From: a virus
IMG/VR virus record: IMGVR_UViG_3300047462_000753
Location: 1-46,756 of that record
Strand: one strand, 5' to 3'
DNA length: 46,756 nt
The first letter of the stretch is position 1; each line of letters starts with the position of its first letter. Both the position numbers and the translations under genes were made by a program. This document shows, piece by piece, positions 2,887 through 26,696 of this stretch. The notes below the pieces were generated by a model. The model had not been told where the DNA came from. It ran no database searches and was given only the letters and a program-made list of their open reading frames with translations.

Positions 2887-2924
2887 AACCAGTTCCAAAC
2901 CACCCCGAGCACCGCGAGGCGACT

Positions 2925-3812: not shown

Positions 3813-3823
3813 GGGCCCGCATC

Positions 3824-6285: not shown

Positions 6286-8843
6286 ACGCCATCGCGCCCG
6301 CCGCCGACTATCAGAGTTTCCTCAAGGCCAAGATCCGCCTCGCCGGAGCCGAAGGGTTCGACGTCGATCTGGCCGACATCAATCCCGAGTTGAAGCCGCA
6401 CTGCCGGGCCATTATCCGCTGGGCTCTGGCTGGCGGCCGGCGTGCCATCTTCGCCGCCTTCGGGCTGCACAAGACCTGCATGCAGATCGAGATCATGCGC
6501 CTGGTCGGCCGGCACATTGGCGGTCGTCGACTGATCGTCCTGCCGCTGGGCGTGCGCCAGGAATTCTTCCGCGACGCCCGCGAGCGGTTCCACGGCGAGT
6601 TCGCGGTCAAGCTGAAGTTCATCCGCTCGGCCGCCGAGATCGAAGGCGATGACCTGATCTATCTCACCAATTATGAGACGATCCGCGACGGCAAGCTCGA
6701 TCCGAGGCTCTTCGCTGCCGCCAGCCTGGACGAGGCGTCCTGTCTGCGCAGCTATGGCAGCAAGACCTTCCAGGAGTTCCTGCCGCTGTTCGAGGGCGTC
6801 CGGTTCAAATATGTGGCCACGGCCACGCCGTCGCCCAACCGCTTCAAGGAACTGATCCACTATGCCGGCTTCCTCGGCATCATGGACACCGGCCAGGCCC
6901 TGACGCGCTTCTTCCAGCGCGACAGCAGCAAGGCCGGCAACCTCACTCTCTATCCCCACAAGGAGGAGGAGTTCTGGCTGTGGGTCCACTCATGGGCCCT
7001 GTTCATCCAGCGGCCGTCCGACCTCGGCTTCAGTGACGAAGGCTATGACTTGCCGCCGCTGGTGGTGCGCTGGCATGAGGTCAAGGTCGATATCTCGGGC
7101 ACCGAGGTCGAGCGCGACGGCCAGGGCCGCATGTTCCGCGACGCTGCCATCGGCGTGCAGAATGCCGCCCGCGAGAAGCGGGACAGCCTGCCGGCGCGCA
7201 TCGCCAAGCTGGTCGAGATCCGGAAGGCCGAGCCGAATAACCATTTCCTGCTGTGGCATGACCTTGAGGCCGAGCGCCACGCGATCGAAGCGGCGCTGCC
7301 GGGCGTGACCACCGTCTATGGCTCCCAGGATCTGGACGTGCGCGAAAAGGCCATCATCGAATTCAGCGATGGGCTGATCCGCGACCTCGCGGCCAAGCCG
7401 GTGATCGCCGGCAGCGGCTGCAACTTCCAGCGCCATTGCCACCGGGCCGTCTTTGCCGGCGTCGGCTTCAAATTCAACGACTTCATCCAAGCCATCTATC
7501 GCCTGCAGCGCTTCCAGCAGCAGCACCCCGTCGAGATCGACGTCATCTACGCCGAAACCGAACGCGAGGTCCGCCGCGACCTGGAGACGAAGTGGGCGCG
7601 CGACAGGGAGATGCGCGCGAAAATGAGCGAGATCATCAGGAAATTCGGGCTCGACCAGTTGCCCATGCACGAAGCCCTTTCGCGGTCGATCGGCGTCGAG
7701 CGGATCGAAGTCCGCAGCGACAGGTTCCGCGTGGCCAACAACGACGCCGTCGCCGAGGCCCGGCTGCAGCCGGAGAACTCGGTCGACCTGATCGTCACCA
7801 GCATTCCCTTCGCCAACCATTATGAATACACGCCGAGCTATAACGACTTCGGCCACACCGAGGACAACGCCCATTTCTGGGCGCAGATGGATTTCCTCAC
7901 GCCCGAGCTGCTGCGGATCCTGAAGCCCGGCCGGCTCGCCTGCATCCACGTCAAGGACCGGATCCTGTTCGGCAATGTCACCGGGAAGGGTGTTCCGACC
8001 AGCAGCCCCTTCCACGCCGAGGCCATCGCACATTATGCGGGCATGCCGGAATTCGGGATCAAGGGGCACGGCTTCGACTATCTGGGGCTGATCACCATCA
8101 TCACCGACGTGGTCAGGGAGAACAATCAGACCTACCGCCTCGGCTGGTCGGAGCAGTGCAAGGACGGCACCAAGATGGGCGTCGGCTCGCCCGAATATGT
8201 GGTGCTGGTCAGGAAGCCGCAGACCGACCGGACGCGCAGCTACGCCGATCTTCCGGTGGTCAAGGACAAGGCGGACTATTCCCGCGCCCGTTGGCAGGTG
8301 GACGCCCACTCCTTCTGGCGGTCGAGCGGCAACCGCCAAATGACCGCCGAGGAGCTGGCACTGCTCGGCCCCGGCAAGCTGGCCACCGCCTTCACCGATT
8401 TCAGCCTGGCGCAGATCTACGATTACGAATTCCACGTCAAGATCGGCGAGGAACTTGACCTCCGCAGCGCGCTCCCCAGCACCTTCATGTCGCTGGCACC
8501 CGGCTCCCACAATCCCGATGTCTGGCACGATGTCCAGCGCATGCTGACGCTGAATGGCGAACAGGCGAAGCGCGCCGTCGAGCAGCATGTGTGCCCGCTC
8601 CAATTCGACATCGTTGATCGCCTGATCGAGCGCTACAGCAATAAGGACGAGGTGGTCTATGACCCCTTCGGCGGCCTGATGACCGTCCCCTACCGGGCTA
8701 TCCTCAAAGGTCGGCGCGGCCAGGCATCTGAACTATCGGCCAGCTACTTCTTCGACGGGGTTCACTATCTGCAGGCGGCGGAGAAGCAAGTCTCGATGCC
8801 GACGCTGTTCGACCTCATGGCGCCCGGCGAGGCTGCCGAATGA
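6282..8843 (+). CDS. SF2 helicase-DNA methyltransferase fusion
   Basis: 853 residues in two parts. Residues 1-470 are an SNF2-like helicase: motif I FGLHKT (Lys64), motif II LDEAS (about 149-153), motif III TATPSPN, and motif VI FIQAIYRLQRFQQ. Residues about 475-853 are an N6-adenine/N4-cytosine-type methyltransferase in permuted order: catalytic-loop motif TSIPF (about 506) before the SAM-binding motif DPFGGLMTVPYRA (about 793). This architecture recurs in phages of alpha- and betaproteobacteria. The unusual residues, His in motif I and IPF for PPY, seem to be family features rather than decay. It may translocate on DNA while methylating, to evade restriction (inference). It overlaps both neighbours as ATGA. 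Confidence 0.87.
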   Translation: MNAIAPAADYQSFLKAKIRLAGAEGFDVDLADINPELKPHCRAIIRWALAGGRRAIFAAFGLHKTCMQIEIMRLVGRHIGGRRLIVLPLGVRQEFFRDARERFHGEFAVKLKFIRSAAEIEGDDLIYLTNYETIRDGKLDPRLFAAASLDEASCLRSYGSKTFQEFLPLFEGVRFKYVATATPSPNRFKELIHYAGFLGIMDTGQALTRFFQRDSSKAGNLTLYPHKEEEFWLWVHSWALFIQRPSDLGFSDEGYDLPPLVVRWHEVKVDISGTEVERDGQGRMFRDAAIGVQNAAREKRDSLPARIAKLVEIRKAEPNNHFLLWHDLEAERHAIEAALPGVTTVYGSQDLDVREKAIIEFSDGLIRDLAAKPVIAGSGCNFQRHCHRAVFAGVGFKFNDFIQAIYRLQRFQQQHPVEIDVIYAETEREVRRDLETKWARDREMRAKMSEIIRKFGLDQLPMHEALSRSIGVERIEVRSDRFRVANNDAVAEARLQPENSVDLIVTSIPFANHYEYTPSYNDFGHTEDNAHFWAQMDFLTPELLRILKPGRLACIHVKDRILFGNVTGKGVPTSSPFHAEAIAHYAGMPEFGIKGHGFDYLGLITIITDVVRENNQTYRLGWSEQCKDGTKMGVGSPEYVVLVRKPQTDRTRSYADLPVVKDKADYSRARWQVDAHSFWRSSGNRQMTAEELALLGPGKLATAFTDFSLAQIYDYEFHVKIGEELDLRSALPSTFMSLAPGSHNPDVWHDVQRMLTLNGEQAKRAVEQHVCPLQFDIVDRLIERYSNKDEVVYDPFGGLMTVPYRAILKGRRGQASELSASYFFDGVHYLQAAEKQVSMPTLFDLMAPGEAAE

Positions 8844-9475
8844 AGGCCGATGCCCTGAAGATCTTGGCGCTCCACTGGCTACGTCAACAGCATGCCGACG
8901 CCACCCTCCTGTGCGAAATGGGGCTCGGCTCCTGGAGCAGCGGCGGCCGGCTCGACGTGGCCGCCATCACCGACAGCGAGATCATCGCCGTGGAGATCAA
9001 GGGGGACGGCGACAGCCCGACGCGGCTTCCCCTCCAGGCCGAGCGCTACGCAGCGGTCTGCAGCCGGGTTTGGCTGCTGCCTTCGCCCGATCTGCGTAAA
9101 GGCTGCGAGCGCCACCGGCCGCACGGATGGGGAATGCTGGAAGTCGTCGATGGCGCCGTTCAACAGGCCGACAGATATGGCTCACCATCCGATCTGGGGG
9201 CGCGCAACAGCGCCGGGGTCATGTGGTCGATGCTGTGGTCGGCGGAAATGGGCCATACCTATCGACGCCTCGCCGTCGCCCACGCCGGCAAACTGTCCTT
9301 GGCCGGCCACCATTGCCGCGAAGGCGGAGAGCGCATTCCCCTCCACATCCTGCGGCCGGCAGTGATTGGCGGCCTGCGCGCGCGCGATTGGCGCCGTGAC
9401 GGCCAGTTCCCCAAGGAGAATGTGTGGTTGTCTGACGATAAACTGCCGGCATTGCCCGGGGCGGTGGTTGAGTGA
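8840..9475 (+). CDS. PD-(D/E)XK nuclease-like protein (MmcB/sce7726-like)
   Basis: 211 residues. The core RLDVAAITDSEIIAVEIKGD contains Asp39, Glu52 and Lys54 (D...ExK), followed by Gln67, the normal active-site layout of restriction-endonuclease-fold proteins such as MmcB and sce7726. The rest has no recognised domain. Sitting inside a methyltransferase/helicase block with four-base overlaps on both sides, it may be a nuclease or a DNA-end binding partner. Whether it cuts, and what, cannot be read from sequence. Confidence 0.7.
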   Translation: MKADALKILALHWLRQQHADATLLCEMGLGSWSSGGRLDVAAITDSEIIAVEIKGDGDSPTRLPLQAERYAAVCSRVWLLPSPDLRKGCERHRPHGWGMLEVVDGAVQQADRYGSPSDLGARNSAGVMWSMLWSAEMGHTYRRLAVAHAGKLSLAGHHCREGGERIPLHILRPAVIGGLRARDWRRDGQFPKENVWLSDDKLPALPGAVVE

Positions 9476-9951
9476 CGGCCGTCCAACCATTCCTTTTCGG
9501 CGGTTCGACCTGGATTGAGGTCCGCGACGGCAATGACACCGGTCGCGCCATCTTTGATCGGCATTATTCTCGCTATCGCTACGCAGATGGTCGAAAACCG
9601 CGCCTCTACGTCGGCCCCGGCGAAAAGATGGTGCTGCTGACGCCATGCGCCTGCGCTCTGTTCGTGTGGCGGAAGTTCATCAGCGCCGACGGCCAGCAGG
9701 GCGTCAATTGCGCTGTTTTCCGAAATGAGGGTGCCGGCCTCTCCTCAGAACTGATCCGATCGGTCGATGATCTCGCGTGGCGGCGGTGGCCCGGCGAGCG
9801 GCACTTCACCTACGTCAATCCGCGCCGGATCCGAAGCACCAATCCCGGCTTCTGCTTCATCAAGGCCGGTTGGTCGAAGTGCGGCATCACGAAGTGGAAG
9901 CGCCTGCTGATCCTTGAACGGATCCCCGAAGCCCTGGGGGCGACGGCATGA
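9472..9951 (+). CDS. Conserved phage protein, possibly Mom/GNAT-like
   Basis: 159 residues from a GTG overlapping the upstream stop (GTGA). It shows FDRHYSRYRYADGRKPRLYV, VNCAVFRNEG, LSSELIRSVDDLAWRRWPGE, TYVNPRRIRSTNPGFCFIKA and GWSKCGITKW. The order 'RHYSR - AVFRNEG - SSELI - TYVNP..I.S.NPG.CF..AGW..CG.T' recalls the GNAT-like fold proposed for Mu Mom and its relatives, which modify adenines in phage DNA. I see the pattern; the modification role is an inference from it and from the DNA-modification neighbours. A plain hypothetical protein is the alternative. Confidence 0.6.
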   Translation: MTAVQPFLFGGSTWIEVRDGNDTGRAIFDRHYSRYRYADGRKPRLYVGPGEKMVLLTPCACALFVWRKFISADGQQGVNCAVFRNEGAGLSSELIRSVDDLAWRRWPGERHFTYVNPRRIRSTNPGFCFIKAGWSKCGITKWKRLLILERIPEALGATA

Positions 9952-11372
9952 CGCAACTCCGCCCCTATCAGACCAAGAACGTCAACGAGATCCTGGCGTG
10001 CCTGCAGCGCGGCGAAGACCCGCTCTATGTCCTGCCCACCGGCGGCGGCAAGACCACCGTCTTCACCGAGGTGATCGGCAACCGGCTGGGTGACGGCTGG
10101 GAGATGTGTGTCTTCGTCCACCGGATCGAGTTGCTGCGCCAAGCCAGCGCCAGGTTGAAGGCCGAGGGCATCGATCACGGCATCATCGCCCCCGGCTATG
10201 ACCTGACCAGCCATAAGGTCCATGTGGCCAGCATCGATACGGTTGGCGCCCGCCTGGGCGAACTCGAGCCGTGGCTGAAGCGGCTGCACCTGGGCATCCC
10301 CGACGAAGCGCACCACGCGGTGGCCAACAAATGGGACCGCGTCCTGCAGCTTATGCGCCGACGGTTCGGCGTCACGGCCACGCCCTGCCGCACGGATGGC
10401 AAAGGCCTGGGCGAGACGGGGCTGTTCAAGCGGATGGTCCGGGGGCCGTCGATCGGCGAGTTGACCCGCTTGGGCTATCTGGCCCCGGCCGAGGTCTTTG
10501 CGCCGCCCACCGGGCTCGACCTGTCGAAGGTGGGCAAGCGCGGCGGCGATTATGTCCTCAGCCAGATCGCGGCGCTGACCGACACCGACGAGCTGGCGCT
10601 GTTTGCCCGGCGCTGGTACGCCAAACTCTGCCCCGGCCAGCCGGCAGTCGTCTTCTGCACCACCGTCGAGCATGCCCGCCACGTCGCCGAGGCCTTCGCC
10701 GCCGCCGGCTGGCGCGCCACCTCGGTGGACGGGTCGATGCACGCCCGCGACCGCGATGCCGCCATCAGCGGCCTGGGCGACGGCCGCGTCCAGGTGCTGA
10801 CTTCCTGCGAGCTCATCGGCGAAGGCCTGGACATCCCGGCCGTCTCCACCGGGATCCTGCTGCGCCCGACCGAAAGCACCGGCTTGTTCCTGCAGCAGAT
10901 CGGCCGCTCGCTCCGGCCGCATGAGGACAAGACCAACGCCTTCATCATCGACTTGGTGAACAATACCGCCCGCCACGGCATGTATGACGCCGACCGGCAA
11001 TGGGATCTGAACGCGGGCATTAAGGGGCTTGAGCGCGCTGTCGCCGCCACCTGGCGCTGCCGGAAATGCCATCGGGTCACGTCCAAGGCGGACGGAGCGG
11101 CCGTCATGACATGCGCCTGCGGTGCCAGCCAGAAAACCAGCGGTTTCGCCTCCGCCCAGGTCGAAAGCCACCCGCCGATCGCCGGCGTCGCCGCCGACAC
11201 GCTGATGCGCATGAAGTTTCAGGACGCGGTGCCGCTGCTCAAGACGTCGGCTGATCTGATCGCCTACGGCAAGCTGCGGAAGATGGCGCACCCCGTCGCC
11301 TGGGCCCGCAACGTCCTCGAACAGCGCACCCAGGTGCGGGCGCGCTATCAGCCGCGCAGGGCGCACACATGA
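9948..11372 (+). CDS. SF2 DEAH-type helicase with zinc ribbon
   Basis: 474 residues. Motif I TGGGKT (31-36), motif II PDEAHHA, motif III TATP and motif VI QIGRSLRPH give a complete RecQ/UvrB-like SF2 helicase of the type common in phages. Near residues 367-390 a zinc ribbon is visible (CRKCHR and CACGA). It probably unwinds or remodels DNA during phage replication or recombination. It is coupled to neighbours on both sides by ATGA overlaps, so it belongs to the same translational unit as the methyltransferases. Confidence 0.9.
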   Translation: MTQLRPYQTKNVNEILACLQRGEDPLYVLPTGGGKTTVFTEVIGNRLGDGWEMCVFVHRIELLRQASARLKAEGIDHGIIAPGYDLTSHKVHVASIDTVGARLGELEPWLKRLHLGIPDEAHHAVANKWDRVLQLMRRRFGVTATPCRTDGKGLGETGLFKRMVRGPSIGELTRLGYLAPAEVFAPPTGLDLSKVGKRGGDYVLSQIAALTDTDELALFARRWYAKLCPGQPAVVFCTTVEHARHVAEAFAAAGWRATSVDGSMHARDRDAAISGLGDGRVQVLTSCELIGEGLDIPAVSTGILLRPTESTGLFLQQIGRSLRPHEDKTNAFIIDLVNNTARHGMYDADRQWDLNAGIKGLERAVAATWRCRKCHRVTSKADGAAVMTCACGASQKTSGFASAQVESHPPIAGVAADTLMRMKFQDAVPLLKTSADLIAYGKLRKMAHPVAWARNVLEQRTQVRARYQPRRAHT

Positions 11373-11587
11373 TCATGGTGATGGCTTCCGAAATCGTCGC
11401 GCTTGAACACATCCGCATGCGGCGCCGGGACGGTTGGAGCCTTTTCGATTGCCGGTGCGAAGTCCGGCTGTCCGCGACCATGCGCGGAATGACGGTCGAC
11501 CTCCCGCTGGAAAGCTGGGACGACGTGGTGTTGGCGCTCAGCGCCATCTGGGATGGCCTGCCGCACGGCCAGGGGGCCATCGAATGA
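11369..11587 (+). CDS. Small protein between helicase and replication protein
   Basis: 72 residues, MIMVMASEIVALEHIRMRRR and onward, ending VVLALSAIWDGLPHGQGAIE. Both ends overlap neighbours by four bases (ATGA). Several ATGs within the first six codons leave the exact start open. Alternating beta-like strands (SLFDCRCEVRLSATMRGMTV) are visible but no known motif. Position suggests a replication accessory role. Confidence 0.6.
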   Translation: MIMVMASEIVALEHIRMRRRDGWSLFDCRCEVRLSATMRGMTVDLPLESWDDVVLALSAIWDGLPHGQGAIE

Positions 11588-12402
11588 GCGCCTCACAGCC
11601 CTGGTTGAAATTCTACCCCTCCGATTGGAGGGCGGACCAAGCTCTGCGTGTCTGCACCCTGGCGGCGCGCGGATTGTGGATCGAATGCATGTGCCTGATG
11701 CATGAGGCCACCCCCTACGGCCAACTTCTCATCAACGGACGGCCGCCGACAGACATGCAGCTTGCATCCTTGGCAGGCACCCCCGTGGACCAGATACCGG
11801 GCTTGCTCGAAGAACTGGAAAACGCGGGTGTCTTCTCTCGGACCCGCAGCGGCGTGGTCTACTCGCGTCGGATGACCCGTGATGAAAAGAAAAGGAAAGA
11901 CGGGGAAAAATCGCAAAAAACAGGCGGGAAACTCCCAAATTCGAGGCGGTCACAAGCCGCTGAAAAGAAACGAGAAAATTTGCCACCTGGGGAGGTGGTA
12001 GGCGGGGTGGTTTCAAAGCCACCTTCGACCCAGAAGCCAGAAGCCAGAAGACAGATAGAGGAAAAGGAAGAAGGTAAACCTTCTTCCCAAAACGATGGCG
12101 GCGATCTGTTCGGCGAAAAGCCGAAGCGGGGAACGCGCATCCCCCAAGGGGCTGTGCTGCCCGAGGACTGGCGGGCGTTCGCCCTATCGGAGGGTCATCC
12201 CGACCCAGAGAGGGAATGGCTGAAATTTTCGGACTATTGGCGGTCTCAACCCGGTCAGAAGGGCGTGAAGCTCGATTGGGAAGCGACGTGGCGAAATTGG
12301 ATCAGGAGGGCAATGGAAAATGGGGCAGCAAATCGAGGTACAGCCGGCAATCGCCCTCGGAACGGGTTCGTTGAAATTATCACTTCCGGAGAGCTTGGAT
12401 AG
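11584..12402 (+). CDS. Phage replication protein (DUF1376/DnaT-like), contains candidate origin
   Basis: 272 residues. The N-terminal domain (WLKFYPSDWRADQALRVCTL, then AARGLWIECMCLMHEA) is the winged-helix-type DUF1376-like module of phage replication initiators and primosomal proteins. A Lys/Glu-rich linker (about 98-185) follows. The C-terminal module (LPEDWRAFALSEGHPDPERE and WLKFSDYWRSQPGQKG, ending WEATWRNWIRRA) is typical of DnaT/O-like proteins that recruit the replicative helicase. The gene's linker DNA is AT-richer than its surroundings and full of palindromes, so it may hold the origin, as in lambda O. The first ATG of this reading frame after the upstream gene is at 11584, overlapping its stop. 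Confidence 0.8.
   Translation: MSASQPWLKFYPSDWRADQALRVCTLAARGLWIECMCLMHEATPYGQLLINGRPPTDMQLASLAGTPVDQIPGLLEELENAGVFSRTRSGVVYSRRMTRDEKKRKDGEKSQKTGGKLPNSRRSQAAEKKRENLPPGEVVGGVVSKPPSTQKPEARRQIEEKEEGKPSSQNDGGDLFGEKPKRGTRIPQGAVLPEDWRAFALSEGHPDPEREWLKFSDYWRSQPGQKGVKLDWEATWRNWIRRAMENGAANRGTAGNRPRNGFVEIITSGELG
12030..12050 (+). repeat. Three tandem CCAGAAG heptamers
   Basis: CCAGAAG occurs three times with no spacer, changing reading frame each time, so the repeat is not explained by a repeated amino-acid motif. It lies next to the inverted repeat at 12066-12087 and may be iterons for the replication protein. Confidence 0.6.
12066..12087. repeat. Perfect 10-bp inverted repeat
   Basis: GGAAGAAGGT, two bases (AA), ACCTTCTTCC. 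It is flanked by A-runs on both sides and lies in the linker-coding part of the replication gene. It could be an initiator site or an RNA hairpin. Confidence 0.6.
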
Positions 12403-13039
12403 GTTGGTGCAAGACCAAACCGAAGGGTTCTGCGGCGAGAATGGGTATGAGACCCGACCTGGGTTGTGGAAGCCGCCGGCGAACATCACCAATTCCGACC
12501 GGGAACACGCCAGATCCTTGGTTGCTCAGGCTGAAGCGGTGTGCCAGCCGGCCCCGCCTGACGCTGTTCGGAAATGGATCAGCACCGTCGGTGCCCTTGT
12601 GGCCGGAAACATGTCGGTCGAAGACGCCAGGGCCAAGCTGTCGGCCTACACCAAGTTGCTCGAAATACCGCTTGGCGTGGTTGGCGACGATGACAGCCTG
12701 AAGCGCGCCGGCCGCCGGTTCAAATGGTTCCCCGCCTATGCCGAATTGGCCGAGTTCGTCGACCAGGAACGCAGCCGTCTAGATCGGCTGGCGACGCGGC
12801 TTCGGATCATCGCCAACGGCGACGAAGATACCAAGCCAGCCAAGCCGCGCTTCCGGCCGCCGGTTCGGAAATTCACCGATGCCGAGCCGACAACCCCTGC
12901 CGAGACGGTGATCGAGGAAGACACGTCGGCGATGACGCCCGATCAGCGGCTCGCATATTGGGGCGCCAGGATCGAGGGGAAAGAACCCGCTGAAGCGCGG
13001 GCCATCGCCACCGGCACCCAAGTACAGGAGCCAGCGTGA
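12320..13039 (+). CDS. Conserved phage protein, possible helicase-loader-like
   Basis: 239 residues. The start (ATG 12320, after AGGAGG about 10 nt upstream) lies 83 bases inside the replication gene in another frame. The central part (SDREHARSLVAQAEAVC, VGALVAGNMSVEDARAKLSA, GRRFKWFPAYAELAEFVDQE) is all-helical and matches a recurrent phage protein found right after O/DnaT-like genes. From position it may be a helicase loader or primosome accessory. No ATPase motif is present, so it is not a DnaC-type AAA+ loader. The C-terminal 60 residues are disordered and Pro/Thr-rich. Confidence 0.7.
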   Translation: MGQQIEVQPAIALGTGSLKLSLPESLDRLVQDQTEGFCGENGYETRPGLWKPPANITNSDREHARSLVAQAEAVCQPAPPDAVRKWISTVGALVAGNMSVEDARAKLSAYTKLLEIPLGVVGDDDSLKRAGRRFKWFPAYAELAEFVDQERSRLDRLATRLRIIANGDEDTKPAKPRFRPPVRKFTDAEPTTPAETVIEEDTSAMTPDQRLAYWGARIEGKEPAEARAIATGTQVQEPA

Positions 13040-13071
13040 TGTTGAGTTTTGTTGAGAGAGGCCGGCCGTGA
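13039..13071 (+). CDS. Ten-codon linker ORF
   Basis: MLSFVERGRP. It starts on the last base of the upstream stop (TGATG) and stops inside the GTG start of the next gene (GTGA). It would carry terminating ribosomes across an otherwise 28-nt gap. It may be only a translational coupling device, or chance. Confidence 0.25.
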   Translation: MLSFVERGRP

Positions 13072-13277
13072 GCCTCGTGTCGTCGATCTATGGGCGAGGA
13101 CAGCCAACCCCGATGTCGGATGCCGAGATGGACGAATGGGCCAGGGAGGCGTGGCGCGGTCACAGCGACATGGTGTCGCTGCGCATCAGCGCCGTCCGAG
13201 ACGACATCATCAGGCAGGCGATCATCAACGAGTTGACGCGCCAGCATGGCGCGCGGCCGAAGCGTAAAGGGGCGTGA
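13068..13277 (+). CDS. Small helical protein, unknown
   Basis: 69 residues from a GTG at 13068. It is acidic N-terminally (TPMSDAEMDEWAREAWRG) and basic C-terminally (ARPKRKGA), with a predicted helical body (SLRISAVRDDIIRQAIINEL). No known domain. The spacing to the next gene is four bases. An early accessory function is likely by position only. Confidence 0.6.
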   Translation: MSLVSSIYGRGQPTPMSDAEMDEWAREAWRGHSDMVSLRISAVRDDIIRQAIINELTRQHGARPKRKGA

Positions 13278-13281
13278 AGCG

Positions 13282-13560
13282 ATGAAAATGACCGTCAAGG
13301 ACTTGGCGGCGCGCTTGTTGGCGCTGCCCGATCAGGAAGCCGAGGTATGGCTAGGTGCCGATAGCTTGGCTGATGAGGCGCATATCGCGATTTGGGCGGC
13401 GCGCAACGGCATAGTGCGGATCGCTCCGCGCGGAACCTATACGACAGCCGCACAGGACGCGCCGGAATGGGCGGAGCACAGGCAACACGGCTGGAGTGCA
13501 CGCTGCGAGGATGAGCCCGCACCAACCTATCTCGGCCGGCAGCCAATGAAGCACGCATGA
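13282..13560 (+). CDS. Small protein with GapR-region/ACLAME-type fold pattern, unknown
   Basis: 92 residues starting MKMTVKDLAARLLALPDQEA. The pattern 'LAARLLALPDQEAEVWLG' recurs in small phage proteins that begin with a helix and continue with short strands (VRIAPRGTYTT). I do not recognise a function. It is the last early gene, because a terminator-like hairpin starts five bases after its stop. Confidence 0.6.
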   Translation: MKMTVKDLAARLLALPDQEAEVWLGADSLADEAHIAIWAARNGIVRIAPRGTYTTAAQDAPEWAEHRQHGWSARCEDEPAPTYLGRQPMKHA

Positions 13561-13564
13561 AAAA

Positions 13565-13593
13565 CCCCGGCGACCGCGCCAACGGTTCCGGGG
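13565..13593. terminator. Terminator-like hairpin with CGCCAA loop (copy 2)
   Basis: CCCCGG pairs with CCGGGG and the inner ACCG with CGGT, leaving the loop CGCCAA. CTTT follows on the + strand. On the - strand the hairpin would be followed by TTTTT only after its last G, so it may work both ways. It closes the early operon just before the NusG-like gene. Its 19-base core is identical to 1937-1955. Confidence 0.6.
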
Positions 13594-13685
13594 CTTTAAC
13601 TAAATATGGGGATGCCGATCCCGTTCATAGATATACGCCATACCGCCCCTAGTGGCAACGGTGGCGTCGAGACGGGGGATCTTGT

Positions 13686-14348
13686 ATGTCGAGCCAATGG
13701 TACGCAATCCGCACCGAGACGGGCCGTGAGCTTTCTGTGGCCAAAGAACTGCGGCCTGATAAGGAAGTCGAGGTCGATGAATATTTGGGCCGGCCAGACG
13801 CGGACATTTACTTGCCGATCTGCGAGAGCCTGGGCGTGCTGCCTGAATGCGGCCTGACCGTGAAGGGGACCATCCTGCCGAGTTATCTCTTCGTCCGAAC
13901 CGATGCGGTGGGGCGGCTGATATCGCAGATCAGGGAGATCGCCGAGCGGCGCGGGATATGGATCAGCATCATGCGAAGCCCGATGAACCCGCTTCCGGTG
14001 TCGGACGATGCGATCAAGGACATGCGCTATGAGTGCGAGAAGCTGATCAGGCAGACATCCGAGACACCGGATCTGGACTGGATGCTCGGCAAAACCTTCA
14101 AGATCCAATCCGGCACCTGGGCCGGCTATGAGGGGCCGTGCTGGAGCTTCGACAAGAATAATCAGCCGAAAATCGCCCTGCCCGTGTGCAAGGTGATGAC
14201 GCCGGTTCCGATCCCGCTCGACTGCCTGTGCCTGACGCCGGTGCAGGAGCAAACACAACATTTTGTTGATAGCTTTCGGAAGAAGCACTATAAGTCGAAG
14301 CAATCAACAAGGCGGAAAAGCCGAAACACTCTGGAGGTGGCCCTATGA
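13686..14348 (+). CDS. Phage NusG paralogue (NGN + KOW-like), putative antiterminator
   Basis: 220 residues. The N-terminus (WYAIRTETGRELSVAKEL ... ILPSYLFVRTD) is a NusG N-terminal domain, the part that binds the clamp helices of RNA polymerase. Residues about 137-175 (GKTFKIQSGTWAGYEGPC) have the KOW pattern of a fold that contacts ribosome, Rho or RNA. NusG/RfaH-type paralogues change pausing and termination. It sits between the early operon's terminator-like hairpin and the terminase genes, the position of a late antiterminator (Q-like role). GGGGGATC precedes the ATG. The function in late transcription is an inference from fold plus position. Confidence 0.8.
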   Translation: MSSQWYAIRTETGRELSVAKELRPDKEVEVDEYLGRPDADIYLPICESLGVLPECGLTVKGTILPSYLFVRTDAVGRLISQIREIAERRGIWISIMRSPMNPLPVSDDAIKDMRYECEKLIRQTSETPDLDWMLGKTFKIQSGTWAGYEGPCWSFDKNNQPKIALPVCKVMTPVPIPLDCLCLTPVQEQTQHFVDSFRKKHYKSKQSTRRKSRNTLEVAL

Positions 14349-14386
14349 GCCCCTGGAGTGGCCGCGCCTTGGAGCGCCTACTATGA
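14345..14386 (+). CDS. Thirteen-codon linker ORF
   Basis: MSPWSGRALERLL. It starts in the NusG-like stop (ATGA) and ends in the TerS start (ATGA). Like the ORF at 13039 it bridges a short gap and could couple translation. It contains the GGAG used by TerS. Low confidence as a protein. Confidence 0.25.
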   Translation: MSPWSGRALERLL

Positions 14387-14904
14387 CCCCCAAAGAAAGC
14401 CGCTTCTGCGTCGAATACACTATCGACGGCAACGCCACGCGCGCTGCGAAGGATGCCGGCTATTCACCCAAGACGGCCTATGCCGCCGGCTGCCGCCTGC
14501 TGAAGAAGCCGGACGTCAAGGTACGCATAGCCGAGCTGAGGGCCGATCAGCTTCAACGCCTGAAGGCCACGGCAGATGATGCCGAGATCGAGATGCGGCG
14601 GATCGCCCTATACGATCCCGCGGACTATATCGATGTGAAGTCTCCCGATGATGTGGCCGCCCTGCCGGAAGACAAGCGGCGTGCCATTGTCGGTTGGAGC
14701 TGGGATAGGAACGGAAACTTCACCCTCCGCTTTGCCAAGACACAGGGGCTCGAAATGCTTGGCCGGCGCCATGGGCTGTTCAAAGAGAAGGTGGAGCACA
14801 CCGGAAAGAACGGCGGCCCGATCCAGATCGAAGGCGGCGGTGTCTCGGGCCTGCTGGCCGCGACCCTTGCCGAAGCGGCCGACGATGCCGATCACCAAGG
14901 ATGA
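14383..14904 (+). CDS. terS: Terminase small subunit
   Basis: 173 residues. The N-terminal part (MTPKESRFCVEYTIDGNATR, AAKDAGYSPKTAYAAGCRLL, KKPDVKVRIAEL) is the DNA-binding helix-turn-helix of the Terminase_2 family, which recognises the phage pac or cos site. The rest (FTLRFAKTQGLEMLGRRHGL) is the oligomerisation part. I chose ATG 14383, with GGAG nine bases upstream, because the conserved domain begins there. It overlaps the large subunit by 20 bases, as paired terminases often do. Confidence 0.93.
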   Translation: MTPKESRFCVEYTIDGNATRAAKDAGYSPKTAYAAGCRLLKKPDVKVRIAELRADQLQRLKATADDAEIEMRRIALYDPADYIDVKSPDDVAALPEDKRRAIVGWSWDRNGNFTLRFAKTQGLEMLGRRHGLFKEKVEHTGKNGGPIQIEGGGVSGLLAATLAEAADDADHQG

Positions 14905-16390
14905 CCGGGAGCAGTATCGGCAACTGAGGGGCGTGTGGCGGAAGCAGCCGGAACTCTATGTCCGGCACCGCCTGGGATTGAACCCGACCGGCCAGCAACG
15001 CGAACTGCTCTCGGCCATCTCACCCTCCGGCGCCAAGGTCAGCGCCCGCGCCGGCCACGGTGTCGGCAAATCGGGCGCGACGTCGGGCATCATCCTTTGG
15101 CACCTAGAGTGCTTCGACTATAGCCGCATCGTCGCCACGGCGCCGTCGGCCAGCCAGCTATACAGCGTGCTGTGGGCGGAACTGGCGAAATGGATCCGCC
15201 GCGGCGACGAGAAGGCGAAGGCCGATGGCCTGCCCTCGGAACTGTGGCTGTCGAGCCTGTTCGGCGTCACTCAGGACCGTGTCTATGACAAGGGCGCGCC
15301 GACCGAATGGTTCGCGGTGGCGCGCACCAGCCGCAAGGAAAACCCCGACGCCCTGCAAGGTTTCCATGCCTCTGACGTCGATATCAGCGCGGACGGCAAC
15401 GCGGCGATCCAGCGCAGCGACGGCGGAGGCTCCATTTTGTTTGTGATCGAAGAGGCATCCGGTGTTCCGGACGTGATCTTCGAGGTGGCGGAAGGCGCTC
15501 TGTCGAGCCCGGGCGCGCGGCTGCTGATGATCGGCAACCCGACGCGCAACACCGGCTTCTTCGCCAGGTCGCATAAGCAGGACCGATCGTCCTATAAGAC
15601 GCTCCATTTCTCCTGCAGCGATTCTCCGCTGGTGGACAAAGGCTATCGGGCGTCGCTGGTCAAGAAATACGGCGAAAACTCGAACATCGTCCGAGTGCGC
15701 GCCGACGGGGAATTCCCCAAGCAGGATGACGACGTGCTGATCCCGCTCGAGGCGGCGGAGGCGGCGCTGACACGCGAGCCCAGGCCGTCTACCGGCAAAC
15801 GGATCCTCGGCGTTGACGTGGCGCGCTACGGCGATGACCGGACGGTCTTCGTGCTGCGCGCCGGCACCACGATCGAGCACATCGAGATCGCCTCGAAACA
15901 AGACACGATGGTGACGGCCGGCCGGGCCGTGGCGCTGCGTCGGGAACTGAATGCCGACGCGATCCATGTGGACGTAATCGGCGTCGGCGCCGGTGTCGTC
16001 GACCGCCTCAAGGAAGTCAAGCAGCCGGTGGTGGCGGTGAACGTCGCCGAGGCCGCGCCCGAGCGCCGCAAGTCCAAGATCGATGCCCAAGGCCTGCGCC
16101 TGCGCGATCATCTGTGGCTGGAGATGCGGGACTGGCTGGCCGATGAAGAGCCGTCGTTCGTCGGCGCCGAGGGCGAACATGCGCAGGATCTGGCGGGCGA
16201 ACTGGCCAGCGTCAAATACAAATTCGATAGCTCCGGCCGGATCGTTGTGGAGAGCAAGGACGAGATGAAAGCCCGCGGATTGCGATCCCCTGATATTGCC
16301 GATGCGCTGGCGACGACCTTCGCTCCCGGCGGCGGCCGGCTCACGATCAGCGACGCTGCGCTGGCGAATATCAAGCGTCGGCGCCGATAG
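14885..16390 (+). CDS. terL: Terminase large subunit
   Basis: 501 residues. The ATPase has Walker A GHGVGKS (57-63), Walker B ILFVIEEASG (about 183-192) and the coupling region NPTRNTGFF. The RNase H-like nuclease follows with Asp in LGVDVARYGDDRTV (about 308-321), DVIGVGAGV and Asp in DIADALATTF. It pumps DNA into the prohead and cuts concatemers. The catalytic set is complete, so it should be active. Its stop overlaps the portal start by one base. Confidence 0.96.
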   Translation: MPITKDDREQYRQLRGVWRKQPELYVRHRLGLNPTGQQRELLSAISPSGAKVSARAGHGVGKSGATSGIILWHLECFDYSRIVATAPSASQLYSVLWAELAKWIRRGDEKAKADGLPSELWLSSLFGVTQDRVYDKGAPTEWFAVARTSRKENPDALQGFHASDVDISADGNAAIQRSDGGGSILFVIEEASGVPDVIFEVAEGALSSPGARLLMIGNPTRNTGFFARSHKQDRSSYKTLHFSCSDSPLVDKGYRASLVKKYGENSNIVRVRADGEFPKQDDDVLIPLEAAEAALTREPRPSTGKRILGVDVARYGDDRTVFVLRAGTTIEHIEIASKQDTMVTAGRAVALRRELNADAIHVDVIGVGAGVVDRLKEVKQPVVAVNVAEAAPERRKSKIDAQGLRLRDHLWLEMRDWLADEEPSFVGAEGEHAQDLAGELASVKYKFDSSGRIVVESKDEMKARGLRSPDIADALATTFAPGGGRLTISDAALANIKRRRR

Positions 16391-18375
16391 TGACGTCTGC
16401 CCCCAGCAGCGGCCGGGCTCGCCAGCCTCGGGTTCCCCGCAAGCGGCCGAAGATGCATATCAGCGACATGGCGATGGTCCGTGCGCGCATGCGCCGGTCA
16501 TCGAAAGGCGTGCCAGCGCAGGATGCCGTCAGCCTGTTCAAGATGGCGCAGCATCCACCCGGCGTCGCGCCGAAGATGGCGATGGACGATCCGTTCGGCG
16601 GCCTGGCCGGCTGGGCGGGAACCGCACTCGCTGGGGCCATGATCGAGGGTCAGACCTTCATCGGCTATCCGGTGCTGGCCGAGCTGGCGCAGCGCCCGGA
16701 ATATCGGCGCATCAGCGAAGTGATCGCCCGCCATATGACCCGGAAGTGGATCAAGTTCCGTGCCGTAGGCGAAGACGATAAGGGCGACAAGATCGCTGTC
16801 ATCGAAGAGGCGATGAAGCGGCTTAATGTCCGCGAGGTCTTCCGCAAGGCGGCCGAGCAGGATGGCTTCTTCGGGCGCGGGCACCTCTATCTCGACTTCG
16901 GCACCACCGATGACCGGGACGAGCTCAAGACGCCAATCGGCGATGGTCACGATCAAATCAGCCGGTCGAAGGTCGCCAAGGGAAGCTTGAAGCGCCTGAA
17001 GCCGATCGAGGCGGTCTGGTGCTACCCGACCAGCTACAACTCGAACAATCCGCTGAAGCCGGAATGGTACAAGCCCAACGCCTGGTTCGTCATGGGCACG
17101 GAGATCCACGCATCGCGCCTGCTGACCTTCATCGGACGCGAGGTGCCGGACCTGCTGAAGCCGGCCTATTCGTTCGGCGGCCTGTCGCTGTCCCAGATGG
17201 CGAAGCCCTACGTCGATAATTGGTTGCGCACCCGCCAGAGCGTTGCTGACATCATCAGCTCCTTCTCGGTTTTCGTGCTGAAGACCAACGCCCTAGAATC
17301 CCTCGCACTCAATGGCGAGGACGTCATGAAGCGGGCGGATATCTTCAACGCCTGCCGTGACAATGCCGGCGTGATGATTGTCGACAAGGAAACTGAGGAT
17401 TTCGCCAACGTGGCGGCTCCTCTCTCGGGATTGCATGAGCTGCAGGCGCAGACCCAAGAGCATATGGCCGCAGTGTCGGGCATCCCGATCGTCGAACTGC
17501 TGGGCATCCAGCCGGCCGGTCTGAACGCCTCTTCCGAAGGCGAGATCCGGACCTTCGAGGACTGGATACACTCGTCACAGGAGACGCTGTTCCGCCCCAA
17601 TCTGACGCGGATTGTCGGTTTCATCCAGCTTTCCGAGTTCGGGGAAGTGGATCCGGACATCACCTTCGAATTCGAGCCGCTGCGCGCTCTGGACGAGAAG
17701 GAAATGGCCGAGATGCAATTGACCAAAGCGCAGACCGACGCCGCTCTGGTTGATGCTGGCATTATTTCGGCGACGGACGCCCGCCAGCGGCTATCCGACG
17801 ATCCCGATAGCCCTTACCAGGGCCTGGACCCCGACGATACGCCAGCACCGGATATCTCCGAATTGCTGGGCGGCGCTGGCGAAGCTGGCAAGCAGCCCGG
17901 TGCCGAGGAGTATGACCAGGCCGCCGCCGATTGCGATCTCGGCGCGGACGGCGAATGGGAAGAGGCCAAGCACCCGCGCGGCGAAGGCGGCCAGTTCGGC
18001 TCCGGTGGCCAGGGCGGTGGCGAGTTCGATCCGCACGCCGAAGCCGCCAAGGGCGCCGAGGCGATGGATAAGGTCATCTCGTCGAAGGCCGATGTCATGA
18101 GCGCCATGACGCGGCCGGAGATAGGCGCGATCGACTTCCGCTGGGGCGACAAAAACGGCGGCATTGCGCACATCATTGCCAAGCGAGGCGAAGGTGCGGC
18201 CAAGAAAATGTCCGACGTGTTAGCCCACGGCAAAGTGTCAGTCGGCGTCACGCGGCAGGGTCGGACGCGAGTTCAGATCGCGCATGGCGGCTGGGTGGCA
18301 TCTCTTTCACCGGACTTCCATGGGGAAGCTGGTCACTGGTTGGTGACAGGCTTTGAGCAGGAAGAGGGGAAATGA
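16390..18375 (+). CDS. DUF1073 portal protein with C-terminal PBECR-type nuclease-like domain
   Basis: 661 residues. Residues about 50-470 are a DUF1073/anti-CBASS-Acb1-family-type portal (YRRISEVIARHMTRKWIKF, HLYLDFGTTDD, SFSVFVLKTNALESLALNGE, GLNASSEGEIRTFEDWI), the ring through which DNA enters the head. After a hinge (EAKHPRGEGGQFGSGGQGGG, about 528-547), residues about 575-661 read IGAIDFRWGDKNGGIAHIIA, SVGVTRQGRTRVQIAHGGWV and HWLVTGFEQ. This order is typical of the phage Barnase-EndoU-ColicinE5/D-RelE-like (PBECR) nuclease superfamily, usually fused to MuF proteins. The start is GTG; ATG 16453 is an alternative. A portal carrying this domain could inject a nuclease (inference). Confidence 0.85.
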   Translation: MTSAPSSGRARQPRVPRKRPKMHISDMAMVRARMRRSSKGVPAQDAVSLFKMAQHPPGVAPKMAMDDPFGGLAGWAGTALAGAMIEGQTFIGYPVLAELAQRPEYRRISEVIARHMTRKWIKFRAVGEDDKGDKIAVIEEAMKRLNVREVFRKAAEQDGFFGRGHLYLDFGTTDDRDELKTPIGDGHDQISRSKVAKGSLKRLKPIEAVWCYPTSYNSNNPLKPEWYKPNAWFVMGTEIHASRLLTFIGREVPDLLKPAYSFGGLSLSQMAKPYVDNWLRTRQSVADIISSFSVFVLKTNALESLALNGEDVMKRADIFNACRDNAGVMIVDKETEDFANVAAPLSGLHELQAQTQEHMAAVSGIPIVELLGIQPAGLNASSEGEIRTFEDWIHSSQETLFRPNLTRIVGFIQLSEFGEVDPDITFEFEPLRALDEKEMAEMQLTKAQTDAALVDAGIISATDARQRLSDDPDSPYQGLDPDDTPAPDISELLGGAGEAGKQPGAEEYDQAAADCDLGADGEWEEAKHPRGEGGQFGSGGQGGGEFDPHAEAAKGAEAMDKVISSKADVMSAMTRPEIGAIDFRWGDKNGGIAHIIAKRGEGAAKKMSDVLAHGKVSVGVTRQGRTRVQIAHGGWVASLSPDFHGEAGHWLVTGFEQEEGK

Positions 18376-18503
18376 GAACCCGGTGATTCGGCCAACCCCC
18401 ATACGAACGGGCCGGTCTACGCACGATGGGCCTTTCGGCTCTTGCCCAAGGTGGGAGCGGGTTCGGGAACACTATACGCCGATCATCATCGAAATTCCAA
18501 GGC

Positions 18504-18529
18504 GAAGCGCCTGAGCCTCTCGGCGCTTC
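18504..18529 (+). promoter_or_regulatory. Hairpin in the leader of the 18623 gene
   Basis: GAAGCGCC (18504-18511) pairs perfectly with GGCGCTTC (18522-18529) around a ten-base loop. No T-run follows, so it is more likely an mRNA stability or processing element than a terminator. Confidence 0.45.
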
Positions 18530-18533
18530 ACCA

Positions 18534-18580
18534 GGGGCGCCGGGGTCGGCGGCGGGCGGCCATCATGGCCCTGGCGCCCC
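18534..18580 (+). promoter_or_regulatory. Larger nested hairpin in the leader of the 18623 gene
   Basis: GGGGCGCC (18534-18541) pairs with GGCGCCCC (18573-18580). Inside, GGCCAT and ATGGCC form a second small stem. It lies 42 bases before the start codon. Confidence 0.45.
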
Positions 18581-18622
18581 GAACCCACACGAAGACAACG
18601 CATCTCCAGGAAGTGAGAAGTC

Positions 18623-20404
18623 ATGAGCGTCGAAGCTGCCATCACGGTTACCCCCGGAACGGGCGCCTCGGTTGACGTGTTCAACTCGGGAACCGGCGGA
18701 GCCTCGCGCCAGGCCATGGTTATCGCCGATCCCGCCACTGCCGCCAATGTCGCCACCGTCAATTCGGCTGGCCAGGTCGCCGTCCAAGGCACCGGCACGG
18801 TCGGGTCGGCCTCCGGCAACACCGCTGCGGTCGTTGGTGGTCAGGATGGTTCCGGGATTGTGCGGGTTCTCACCGCCTCGGTCTTCCACAATGCCGACAA
18901 TCAGGCGCTGACCGGCACCAGCTATGGCCAGTTGACGGGCGGCGTGGCTCAGTTGCTCAACGTCGCTGGCAATCTCGACCGCCAGCGCGAAACAGGTGAA
19001 GACGGCATCCCGGCCAATGGCATCTCGGCTTCTGCCGCCAATTTCGCCATGTCGTTCAAGACGTCGATCGCCCTGGCGATCACGGCCAATGCCAGCCCGC
19101 AGGCGGTCACCCCCGGCGCCATGTCCGGCACCATCAACGGCGTCCCCTGGTCGATCCAGCAGGGATCGACGCTGTCGATCGATACGGGCGCCAACCAGGA
19201 ATATGTCTATGTCACCTCGGTGACCAGCACGACCTTCTCGGCCGTGTTTGGCAAGAGCCACGGCACCAACTCGAAGGTCGGCGGTTTCGTCTACAACCAG
19301 GAACGCGATGCCGCCGGCGAGGCAGATGGCGCGGCCGGCATTGGCACCGCCGTGGCGGCGGAATATGAATTCAATGGCGGCGGCCCCGGCGGCGGCAGCT
19401 TCGACCGCGCCCGCAACCTGCAGGGCAAGGGAAAGACCAGCCAGACTATCAGCGCTGGCGGCACCCAGGGCAGCCTGTCGCTGACGATCGGCGCTAATAC
19501 CGGTCTCAAGGCCGGCATGCAGGTGATGCTGGCGACCGCATCCTTCCCGACGTCGGGCAGCTATGAGGCGGTCTATGTCGACCTGAGCTATGTCGAGGGC
19601 ACCAACACGGTGCCGCTGCTGTCGGCTATCCAGCTCGCGAACACCTACACCACCGTCTATTACGACGCCTTCTCCGCCGACGGACCCGGCCTCAGCGGCT
19701 TCTTGCCGATCGGCGTGGGGATCGAGGAAGAGGCCCTGTACGACCCGGTCACCGGGCTGTACTTCGTTGAGCGCGCGGCGACGACGGATGCTTGCGCGCC
19801 GCAGAATGTCGTCATCGAAAATCCCGGCCTCTTCAATGGCGCGACGATCGACCGCCAGCGCGCCGCCCCCGGCACCATCGGCGTGGCGGCCGTCAGCTCG
19901 GACGGCACCAAGGCGACCTATCGCGTCTCCGGCGTTGGCCTCACTCCGGCCGCCGCCTGCACCGACTTCATCACCATCACCGGCTCTGGCTCGAAGACGG
20001 TCCGCTTGAAATCGATCCGGCTGTCGGGCATTGCCACCACCGCTGGCGCCATTCCCGTCCAGCTCATCCGGCGCTCGGCGGTGAACACGGGCGGCGCCAG
20101 CAGCGCTGCCACCGCGGTGAAGCACGATATCAACGATGGTGCCGCCTCCGCCGCCGTCGCGGTCTATTCGGCCAACCCCACCGGCCTGGGCACCGCCGTT
20201 GGCGCCATGGCCACCGATCGCCTGTTCTTGAACCTGAGCACGGCCGCGCCGCTGCCCGTCGTGCGCGACTTCGCGATCAGGCAGGACAAGGCGGCGATCC
20301 TGCGCGGCACCACCGACATCATCGCCATCAATTTCGGCGGCAACACCATCCCCAGCGGCGGCGCCGTCGATTACGAAATCGAGTGGGAAGAGGACAATTC
20401 TTAA
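18623..20404 (+). CDS. Large virion protein, beta-rich, unknown
   Basis: 593 residues, rich in Gly, Ala, Ser and Thr, beginning SVEAAITVTPGTGASVDVFN. Beta-strand repeats (QTISAGGTQGSLSLTIGANT and GSKTVRLKSIRLSGIATTAG) and an acidic C-terminus (VDYEIEWEEDNS) are visible. This composition is normal for head decoration or fibre proteins. Its place between portal and MuF, in the head module, argues for a head-associated fibre or decoration role. I recognise no named family. Confidence 0.75.
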   Translation: MSVEAAITVTPGTGASVDVFNSGTGGASRQAMVIADPATAANVATVNSAGQVAVQGTGTVGSASGNTAAVVGGQDGSGIVRVLTASVFHNADNQALTGTSYGQLTGGVAQLLNVAGNLDRQRETGEDGIPANGISASAANFAMSFKTSIALAITANASPQAVTPGAMSGTINGVPWSIQQGSTLSIDTGANQEYVYVTSVTSTTFSAVFGKSHGTNSKVGGFVYNQERDAAGEADGAAGIGTAVAAEYEFNGGGPGGGSFDRARNLQGKGKTSQTISAGGTQGSLSLTIGANTGLKAGMQVMLATASFPTSGSYEAVYVDLSYVEGTNTVPLLSAIQLANTYTTVYYDAFSADGPGLSGFLPIGVGIEEEALYDPVTGLYFVERAATTDACAPQNVVIENPGLFNGATIDRQRAAPGTIGVAAVSSDGTKATYRVSGVGLTPAAACTDFITITGSGSKTVRLKSIRLSGIATTAGAIPVQLIRRSAVNTGGASSAATAVKHDINDGAASAAVAVYSANPTGLGTAVGAMATDRLFLNLSTAAPLPVVRDFAIRQDKAAILRGTTDIIAINFGGNTIPSGGAVDYEIEWEEDNS

Positions 20405-20457
20405 CTGCCTGGTGAAACAGGTGGTATCGTTCGTCCTTCCCCAATGGTGAGACCGCA

Positions 20458-21228
20458 TTGAACTTCGCCTTCGACGACGCCCGCTTCGGAAAGCGCAAGG
20501 AAAAGGCCTATTTCGCCAAGGTGCGGCGTGCCGAATTCCAATATGCGCGGAAGCTGCGGCAGATCGCGAGGCAGATCGGCCAACTGACCGGCGCCTTCGA
20601 TCCGCTCGACCTGACGTCGATGCAAGCCTGCCAGGAAGCCTTGTCCGGCTATTCGACGATCATCAGCGCCTGGGCCCGATCAGCGGCCAGCGCCATGCTG
20701 TCGGATCTGATGAAACGCGACGAGAAGGCCTGGGCGGCGCTGTCCAGCGACATATCGCGCAACCTGCGTCTCGAAATCCAGTCGGCGCCGATCGGCCAGG
20801 TCCTGCGGCAATATCTCGACGAGCAAGTGGTGCTGATCACCAGCCTGCCTCGTGATGCGGCCGAGCGGGTGCAGAAGCTGGCCCTCGAGGCGCATACCGA
20901 GACAGGCGCCCGGCAGCGCGAGCTGGCCCAAGAGATCATGCGCACTGGCGAGGTCACGATCAGCCGCGCCAACCTGATCGCCCGCACTGAGATTGCCCGC
21001 GTCTCATCCGGCTTGACGATGGCCAGGGCGCAGCATATTGGCTCGGAAGGATATATCTGGCGCACTTCGGCCGACACGGATGTTCGATCTTCGCACCGGG
21101 CCCTGAACGGAACCTTTCACCGGTGGGATGACCCGCCGGAATGCGACCCAGGTCACCACGCCCATCCAGGCATGATTTGGAATTGCCGCTGCTGGCCGGA
21201 GCCGATCCTGCCGGACGTCATCGCCTAG
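20458..21228 (+). CDS. MuF-like head morphogenesis protein
   Basis: 256 residues. The C-terminal MuF core is clear: ISRANLIARTEIARVSSGLT, RTSADTDVRSSHRALNGTFH and HPGMIWNCRCWPEPI. In Mu and SPP1-like phages this protein sits at or inside the portal vertex and is needed for infectious particles. The start is TTG with GGTGAG upstream. Unlike many MuF proteins it has no C-terminal toxin domain; in this phage that type of domain is on the portal instead. Confidence 0.88.
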   Translation: MNFAFDDARFGKRKEKAYFAKVRRAEFQYARKLRQIARQIGQLTGAFDPLDLTSMQACQEALSGYSTIISAWARSAASAMLSDLMKRDEKAWAALSSDISRNLRLEIQSAPIGQVLRQYLDEQVVLITSLPRDAAERVQKLALEAHTETGARQRELAQEIMRTGEVTISRANLIARTEIARVSSGLTMARAQHIGSEGYIWRTSADTDVRSSHRALNGTFHRWDDPPECDPGHHAHPGMIWNCRCWPEPILPDVIA

Positions 21229-21270
21229 GCGGCTGATCACCACCACGCCTTCACCCTGAGGACATCCCAC

Positions 21271-22209
21271 ATGATCCGTGCATTGCTTTGCGCGGCAGCG
21301 CTGCTGCTTGCCGGCGCTCCCTCGTATGCTGGCCCCAACGTCGATGCGGAAGCTCAAAACTTCTCTATCTGCTCGGGTGTGAATGCGTCGCTGGCTGCGG
21401 GAACCTGCACCGGAGGCCTTCTTTCCAGCGGGCTGGTGACCAACCCCAGCACCAACCAAGTTGTTCTGGGTCCGTTTGATACGGCGGGCGCCGGAAGTTG
21501 GGATTTCTGGCAGATCAACGCATCCGGCTCCGGCGCTGTCTATGTCATGCAAGAGAGCGATGACCAGGTAAATTGGGTCAGTGCATCTGGGCAGACGGCA
21601 GAGACGGGCACTAGCGCGTTTGCTGGTAATTTTCCGACTGCTGGCGGCGTGTTTGATGGACCGATCCATCATCGATACATGCGGGTGATGGCCTCCGCCG
21701 GTGCAACAGAAGTAAGTACCATATTTGGGTATCTGAGAGCGGCAGCTTTCACCCCAATGATTGCCACGCCCTATTCTTACTTCCGCTCCCAAACCGCCGC
21801 TGTGTATGTCGGCGGTGGCAATGTCGCTATCACCCCCACGACGAACTCGGCTGGCGACGTTATCGTGATGCCCTATGCCATGCGCGAAATGACATGGAAT
21901 TACAGCACCAACGGGACGCCGATCACCACGGCGACGAGCGTGACCCTACACGCTGCTGTCGGTGGGCAGGTCAACAGCCTGGACACCCTGTATTGCGACA
22001 ACAGCGCCGCCACTGCTTCAGAAATCCAAGTGCTTGATGGCGCTTCTGTCATTTGGGATAGGTACGTTCCTGCCTCGGCGTCTAACTTTGCGGTCAAGGC
22101 TCCTGGCGGCATCCCGGTTTACGGGTCGGTGAACTCCACCATGTCCCTCAAGGTGGTGACTGCGGGCACCAGCCTCTACTGCTCGGCTGCCGGGTACATG
22201 AGCTTCTAA
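21271..22209 (+). CDS. Exported or virion protein with signal peptide
   Basis: 312 residues. Residues 1-20 form an ideal signal peptide (MIRALLCAAALLLAGAPSYA then GPN), unexpected inside a head cluster. The C-terminal part (WNYSTNGTPITTATSVTLHA, WDRYVPASASN, YGSVNSTMSLKVVTAGTSLY) looks like phage head-fibre or decoration beta domains. Either the hydrophobic N-terminus has a structural role, or the protein is exported from the infected cell. The TAATG overlap ties it to the next gene. It is slightly less GC-rich than its neighbours by eye. Confidence 0.72.
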   Translation: MIRALLCAAALLLAGAPSYAGPNVDAEAQNFSICSGVNASLAAGTCTGGLLSSGLVTNPSTNQVVLGPFDTAGAGSWDFWQINASGSGAVYVMQESDDQVNWVSASGQTAETGTSAFAGNFPTAGGVFDGPIHHRYMRVMASAGATEVSTIFGYLRAAAFTPMIATPYSYFRSQTAAVYVGGGNVAITPTTNSAGDVIVMPYAMREMTWNYSTNGTPITTATSVTLHAAVGGQVNSLDTLYCDNSAATASEIQVLDGASVIWDRYVPASASNFAVKAPGGIPVYGSVNSTMSLKVVTAGTSLYCSAAGYMSF

Positions 22210-22385
22210 TGCGCTCCCCCGGCTTCTACTGGGTCCGCCGTTTCCGCGATGACCCAGAGTTCACCATCGCGCAATTCGGTGCTGATGGGCTCTGGGTCAC
22301 GCCTGGGGATATCCCAGTGCTTCACGATAGCGCTTTTGTCGAGATCGACGAGCGCCAGATCGAGCGCGTGAGCCATCATGACTGA
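22209..22385 (+). CDS. Small acidic protein, unknown
   Basis: 58 residues, MRSPGFYWVRRFRDDPEFTI and onward, starting in the TAA of the previous gene (TAATG) and running 8 bases into the next. The pattern 'GFYWVRR...FTIAQF..DGLWVTPG' is a short beta-rich fold seen in small phage proteins that some call tail or head accessory. No function can be assigned. Confidence 0.6.
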   Translation: MRSPGFYWVRRFRDDPEFTIAQFGADGLWVTPGDIPVLHDSAFVEIDERQIERVSHHD

Positions 22386-23814: not shown

Positions 23815-23826
23815 GGAGATACGAAC

Positions 23827-24777: not shown

Positions 24778-24789
24778 GGAGCAACCACC

Positions 24790-25917: not shown

Positions 25918-25940
25918 TCACAGGCGATTGACGTTGAAAG

Positions 25941-25964: not shown

Positions 25965-26021
25965 TCATTGAGCGCCAATCCGCGTCTCAGTTTTCCGCCC
26001 CACAAAACTCAGGAGTTTCAC

Positions 26022-26657: not shown

Positions 26658-26696
26658 CCAACGATCAGCCGCGTCTGAAACAGAAAGGGTATCCCT

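Follow-up and report, generated by a model that had tools for sequence, protein, structure and literature searches.

What does a NusG-like gene do between the early and the late genes of a phage? The question is raised by a 220-residue protein encoded in an IMG/VR virus contig of 46,756 nt, which was analysed over its whole length and is called the window here. To our knowledge, late control is not known in most alphaproteobacterial phages. The original prediction saw the gene as a specialised NusG paralogue that might replace a lambda Q-type protein, reading through a hairpin just upstream and others further downstream.

The window phage is contractile-tailed and has a CI/LexA-like repressor at its left end (Table 1). 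Early genes (resolvase, methyltransferase, helicases and primosomal protein) run rightward up to position 13560, the late block starts at 14383, and the NusG-like ORF sits between the two, 34 nt ahead of terS. From 14383 to 46286, every identified gene (packaging, head, sheath, tail and baseplate) lies on one strand, that of the NusG paralogue gene, which bears out the predicted position ahead of ∼30 kb of late genes. A codon-position GC content of 0.55/0.43/0.76 marks the NusG-like ORF as a real gene, on the plus strand and in the annotated frame. Contig IMGVR_UViG_3300049215_000033, recovered from another metagenome, matches positions 13830–24563 with 100% identity (10,734 bp) and, judging by this identity, is the same phage, present in two samples. 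Searches for tRNAs and against Rfam gave no match. Phage DNA methyltransferase families are matched by three large ORFs (4300–6285, 6282–8843 and 45441–46286); most of the second ORF is additionally covered by matches to phage helicase families, and it is possibly a fused helicase-methyltransferase. Towards the right-hand end of the late genes, no gene is assigned to 581 nt (44318–44898).

Table 1. Coordinates of the main features of the window.
Feature	Position	Strand	Remarks
HTH + S24 peptidase repressor (CI/LexA-like)	612–1283	−	Early genes go rightward from the repressor
Intergenic gap, 125 nt, candidate regulatory region	13561–13685		Sole gap of at least 60 nt within 2862–16390
Hairpin	13565–13593		U-tract on the minus strand only; better leftward than rightward terminator
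NusG paralogue gene, 220 aa	13686–14348	+	NGN ∼1–125, KOW ∼130–187, basic tail 188–220
Terminase small subunit (terS)	14383–14904	+	
Terminase large subunit (terL)	14888–16390	+	
Portal protein	16390–18375	+	
Head morphogenesis, maturation protease, major capsid (24790–25917), connector genes, tail sheath (29540–31366)	20458–31366	+	
Strong hairpin, directly 3′ of the major capsid gene	25940–25965	+	Perfect 11-bp stem, UUUU loop, z −4.1
Virion structural protein, tail assembly chaperone, tape measure, baseplate and fibre genes	31377–40293	+	

Pfam NusG (PF02357) matches ORF 13686–14348 with an E value of 3.4e-8 (34.3 bits; cut-off 22.2), identifying an NGN domain, and phrog_6386, ‘transcription antiterminator', covers residues 3–179 (E 3e-11). 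The best NCBIfam match is the UpxY model NF033644 (E 6.6e-12, residues 5–175, 45.7 bits against a cut-off of 100), followed by the models for RfaH (TIGR01955, E 8e-9, 35.7 against 144.5 bits), the housekeeping NusG equivalog (TIGR00922, E 9e-6, 25.6 against 135.7 bits) and LoaP (NF033641, E 6e-4, 19.9 against 125 bits). All four align across NGN plus KOW. Since every score falls below its curated cut-off, the identification of the protein as a host NusG, RfaH, LoaP or UpxY was rejected.

The KOW domain has no Pfam match in the window protein; both the NCBIfam and the PHROG alignments extend across it, and the modelled barrel matches the NusG CTD. An AlphaFold model of moderate overall confidence (mean pLDDT 65; about 89 in the KOW barrel; poor at residues 26–55 and 188–220) predicts an NGN fold at residues 1–125 and a five-strand KOW barrel at 137–183. 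In Foldseek searches with this model the leading matches, including the best from the PDB, were all NusG, Spt5 or RfaH, and structural realignment gave Z scores of 9–11 to NusG and of about 9–10 to NGN structures. A profile combining the window protein with six phage relatives also retrieved solved NusG and RfaH. On this sequence and model evidence the window protein is a member of the NusG/Spt5 family with NGN and KOW domains, as had been predicted.

The protein departs from a housekeeping NusG at positions that matter for function. We aligned it with five genomic NusGs and RfaH (the RfaH sequence being entered by hand). In this alignment the Rho-contact loop reads IFGR in the host NusGs (MFGR in one) versus VCKV at residues 167–170 of the window protein, so that the IFG of a housekeeping NusG is absent. 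In Escherichia coli NusG, I164, F165 and G166 touch Rho, and their loss is regarded as an early step toward RfaH (PMC7593976); loss of the loop thus fits an antiterminator. In the SYLFV motif, Y67 and F69 align as the counterparts of RfaH Y54 and F56, which belong to the surface thought to hold the clamp helices of RNA polymerase; F56 is conserved only among RfaH-like proteins, most NusGs having Leu there (PMC2871177). Residues 188–220 form an extra basic tail (9 K/R, pI 10.6). Genomes of the presumed host type each encode one housekeeping NusG scoring 100+ bits, compared with 34 bits for the phage copy. As a second, divergent NusG beside that of the host, the protein would count, by its sequence, as a specialised NusG paralogue (NusG-SP) in the broad sense.

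A terL scan yielded 80 phage contigs. In 34 of these the Pfam NusG search returned six matches, one belonging to the window phage itself; a seventh, L028, emerged with a profile made from them. For the terL clade we counted 22 contigs (terL identity 51–69%, at least 1 kb of sequence upstream, same-phage contig excluded). An NGN gene is present in six, in each case at most 4.7 kb ahead of terL and in the same orientation, a placement whose chance probability we roughly estimate at about 1e-6. No NGN gene was detected near terL in the other 16 of the 22, so it is not required for the late-operon layout, and contigs more distant in terL showed none at these loci. L023 and L025 share the order NGN–terS–terL with the window, the neighbourhoods of the NGN genes before terL differ among relatives, and the phage NGN proteins are about 14–24% identical to the window protein. 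The association of NGN genes with the position before terL is real but patchy. A tree test of one against many origins of the phage NGN genes gave AU p values of 0.37 and 0.15, which do not tell the two apart.

Two of these proteins are unusual in architecture. In L030 (3288–3899, upstream of terL), the C-terminal part of the NGN protein has no recognisable KOW, and the protein is possibly NGN-only or degenerate. The NGN–KOW protein of L028 (6642–7397) is extended at its N terminus by about 70 residues and falls under the Pfam NusG cut-off, but is clear by the profile. Phage NGN genes may be under-detected. Apart from one contig of the same phage, direct searches with the window protein turned up just a 23% match in a huge phage and two weak Bacteroides-type matches among plasmids, with no relatives in the genome_contigs set; scans with the L010 and L023 NGN proteins each retrieved only the query itself, and the phage NGN family alignment was too diverse to serve as a scan query.

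A cultured phage shows a similar arrangement. In the Bradyrhizobium podophage ppBjS10J-1, a prophage of B. japonicum S10J whose TerL family differs from that of the window phage, an NGN gene (WAX24484.1, Pfam NusG E 3.2e-12, annotated ‘hypothetical protein') lies between the early genes and terL-portal-capsid, a few ORFs ahead of terL. This NGN protein has chromosomal matches in 63 of 385 genomes of the class; in the same genomes the window protein has few and weak matches (E 1e-4 or better in 12 of 385). Neither the paper describing ppBjS10J-1 nor a survey of alphaproteobacterial phages mentions NusG, and in the limited library of papers searched no account was found of NGN genes recurring ahead of terminase genes. 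A specialised NusG is a known kind of protein; its recurrent placement in phages is apparently unreported.

Read-through of the terminator-like hairpin directly before the gene as the key event is not supported. The 13565–13593 hairpin (−19.3 kcal/mol, z −2.5) is followed rightward only by CUUUAACU, a weak U-tract; a run of five T lies on the minus strand, so the hairpin, as an intrinsic terminator, faces leftward. Its strength is ordinary for this genome, folds as strong occurring in 23% of random 150-nt stretches of the window, and a hairpin upstream of the NGN gene is not a common feature of the relatives (combined p 0.15). No conserved DNA or RNA element was found near the NGN gene in the relatives examined: the L010/L015 pair has no conserved non-coding element there, and in the L023/L025 pair similarity is even across the NGN gene and its upstream region, with no separate conserved island. 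The late genes do lack a strong T-run terminator over about 30 kb, but this does not set them apart: no clear rightward terminator was found anywhere in the window, and because the early region is equally terminator-poor, the absence among late genes carries little information. The hairpin after the capsid gene, also proposed as a read-through site, is real, but no U-tract follows its stem, and protection or processing of the capsid message may be as likely as termination. A further 10-bp inverted repeat with a 4-base loop (12065–12088) lies inside the primosomal-protein ORF, its T-run on the minus strand.

Signals for loading were equally elusive. Matches to an ops-like motif with one mismatch number 8 against 8.7 expected, so no RfaH-type ops element is apparent, and no convincing late promoter was found. 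As the only gap of its size in this part of the window, 13561–13685 could plausibly hold a promoter or loading site.

Taken together, these results suggest that the protein is probably a phage-borne specialised NusG paralogue, encoded by the first gene of the late operon; it would keep host RNA polymerase processive and Rho-resistant through ∼30 kb. That the gene heads the late operon, and that this placement recurs, supports, at the level of sequence, a specialised paralogue acting on the late operon. For the window protein we infer RNA polymerase binding, antitermination and late-operon specificity. Of the predicted late antiterminator, then, placement, recurrence and loss of the Rho loop speak in favour, but a recruitment element was not found, and the window protein is very divergent in sequence (19–24% identity to relatives). 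The lack of a recruitment element is what a host-takeover factor would lead one to expect. Such a factor would compete with host NusG cell-wide, block NusG–Rho silencing and relieve Rho polarity throughout the phage DNA, needing no loading site specific to the late operon; a lost Rho loop combined with a retained polymerase-binding motif would suit it as well, as would the varied neighbourhoods of the NGN genes before terL. However, placement at the late-operon head in several lineages suggests a local target, and a factor with global reach would rather be expected among the early genes, so we consider this reading unlikely.

A Q-like late antiterminator would instead load in the 13561–13685 gap and read through the 13565 hairpin, in a self-reinforcing manner because its own gene lies downstream. 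The hairpin does fall within the sole sizeable gap, directly before the paralogue gene, and LoaP reads through hairpin terminators (PMC7819879). The orientation of the T-run, the ordinary strength of the hairpin and its absence as a shared feature of relatives make this version decidedly improbable. The analogy with lambda Q survives for position and predicted outcome only. Lambda Q is encoded before its own loading site, unlike the present gene, whose position after the hairpin means that its own expression would depend on read-through or on a separate promoter. It is very improbable that the protein is a NusG-like factor for pausing, termination or translation coupling, one that would slow late expression or set its timing instead of boosting it: Bacillus subtilis NusG is reported to promote pausing and intrinsic termination (PMC8060035), but in the window protein the Rho contact is lost and an RfaH-type F69 is present, and the characterised specialised paralogues are antiterminators (PMC7593976).

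For a specialised paralogue acting on the late operon, we propose that the NGN domain would bind the clamp helices of host RNA polymerase, displacing host NusG, and that the protein would then ride with the polymerase along the roughly 30-kb late block. Pausing and Rho-dependent polarity would be suppressed there, the latter because the KOW domain is without NusG's Rho-contact loop. Coupling to the ribosome through the KOW domain could persist, and recruitment to nucleic acid might be aided by the basic tail. UpxY, LoaP and TaA are likewise encoded beside the operons they serve (PMC7819879). The window phage may also have a second antiterminator that escaped detection.

More tentatively, and with the balance tilting against it, several alphaproteobacterial phage lineages could, independently or by repeated exchange, have put a specialised NusG at the late-operon head to stand in for lambda Q, as NusG-fold late antiterminators that exclude host NusG and Rho and do not grip the RNA exit channel. 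If so, these phages would shield the late operon from Rho by a repurposed NusG, in parallel to the role proposed for NusG paralogues in plasmid transfer operons. Testable candidates are gained; one is the gene in a cultured Bradyrhizobium lysogen that still carries the annotation ‘hypothetical'.

Among known systems, the Bacteroides capsule antiterminator UpxY resembles the window protein as its best NCBIfam match and in being encoded beside the operon served; that operon is for capsule, whereas here it comprises phage late genes, and the score lies below the UpxY cut-off. RfaH shares the NGN–KOW architecture, the F of the Y-x-F motif and the lost Rho loop; the window differs in having no ops site found, and the KOW domain is predicted as a barrel, with no autoinhibited helical form predicted. 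LoaP is also a specialised NusG adjoining a long operon, and it reads through hairpins; the window protein scores far below its cut-off. GafZ of the Caulobacter GTA and lambda Q are, like the proposed protein, antiterminators for a packaging and virion cluster but do not belong to the NusG family; GafZ binds the promoter and acts together with host NusG (PMC11150451). A NusG-like gene in a Helicobacter pylori prophage, a phage lineage different from that of the window, was proposed from annotation only to speed late and lysis transcription (PMC11321410). Plasmid NusG paralogues lie inside long tra operons and have been proposed as antiterminators of their own operon (PMC7593976); they too are carried by mobile elements, but serve conjugation, not virion genes. 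The NGN gene of ppBjS10J-1 occupies the same position between early and packaging genes, in a podophage rather than a contractile-tailed phage.
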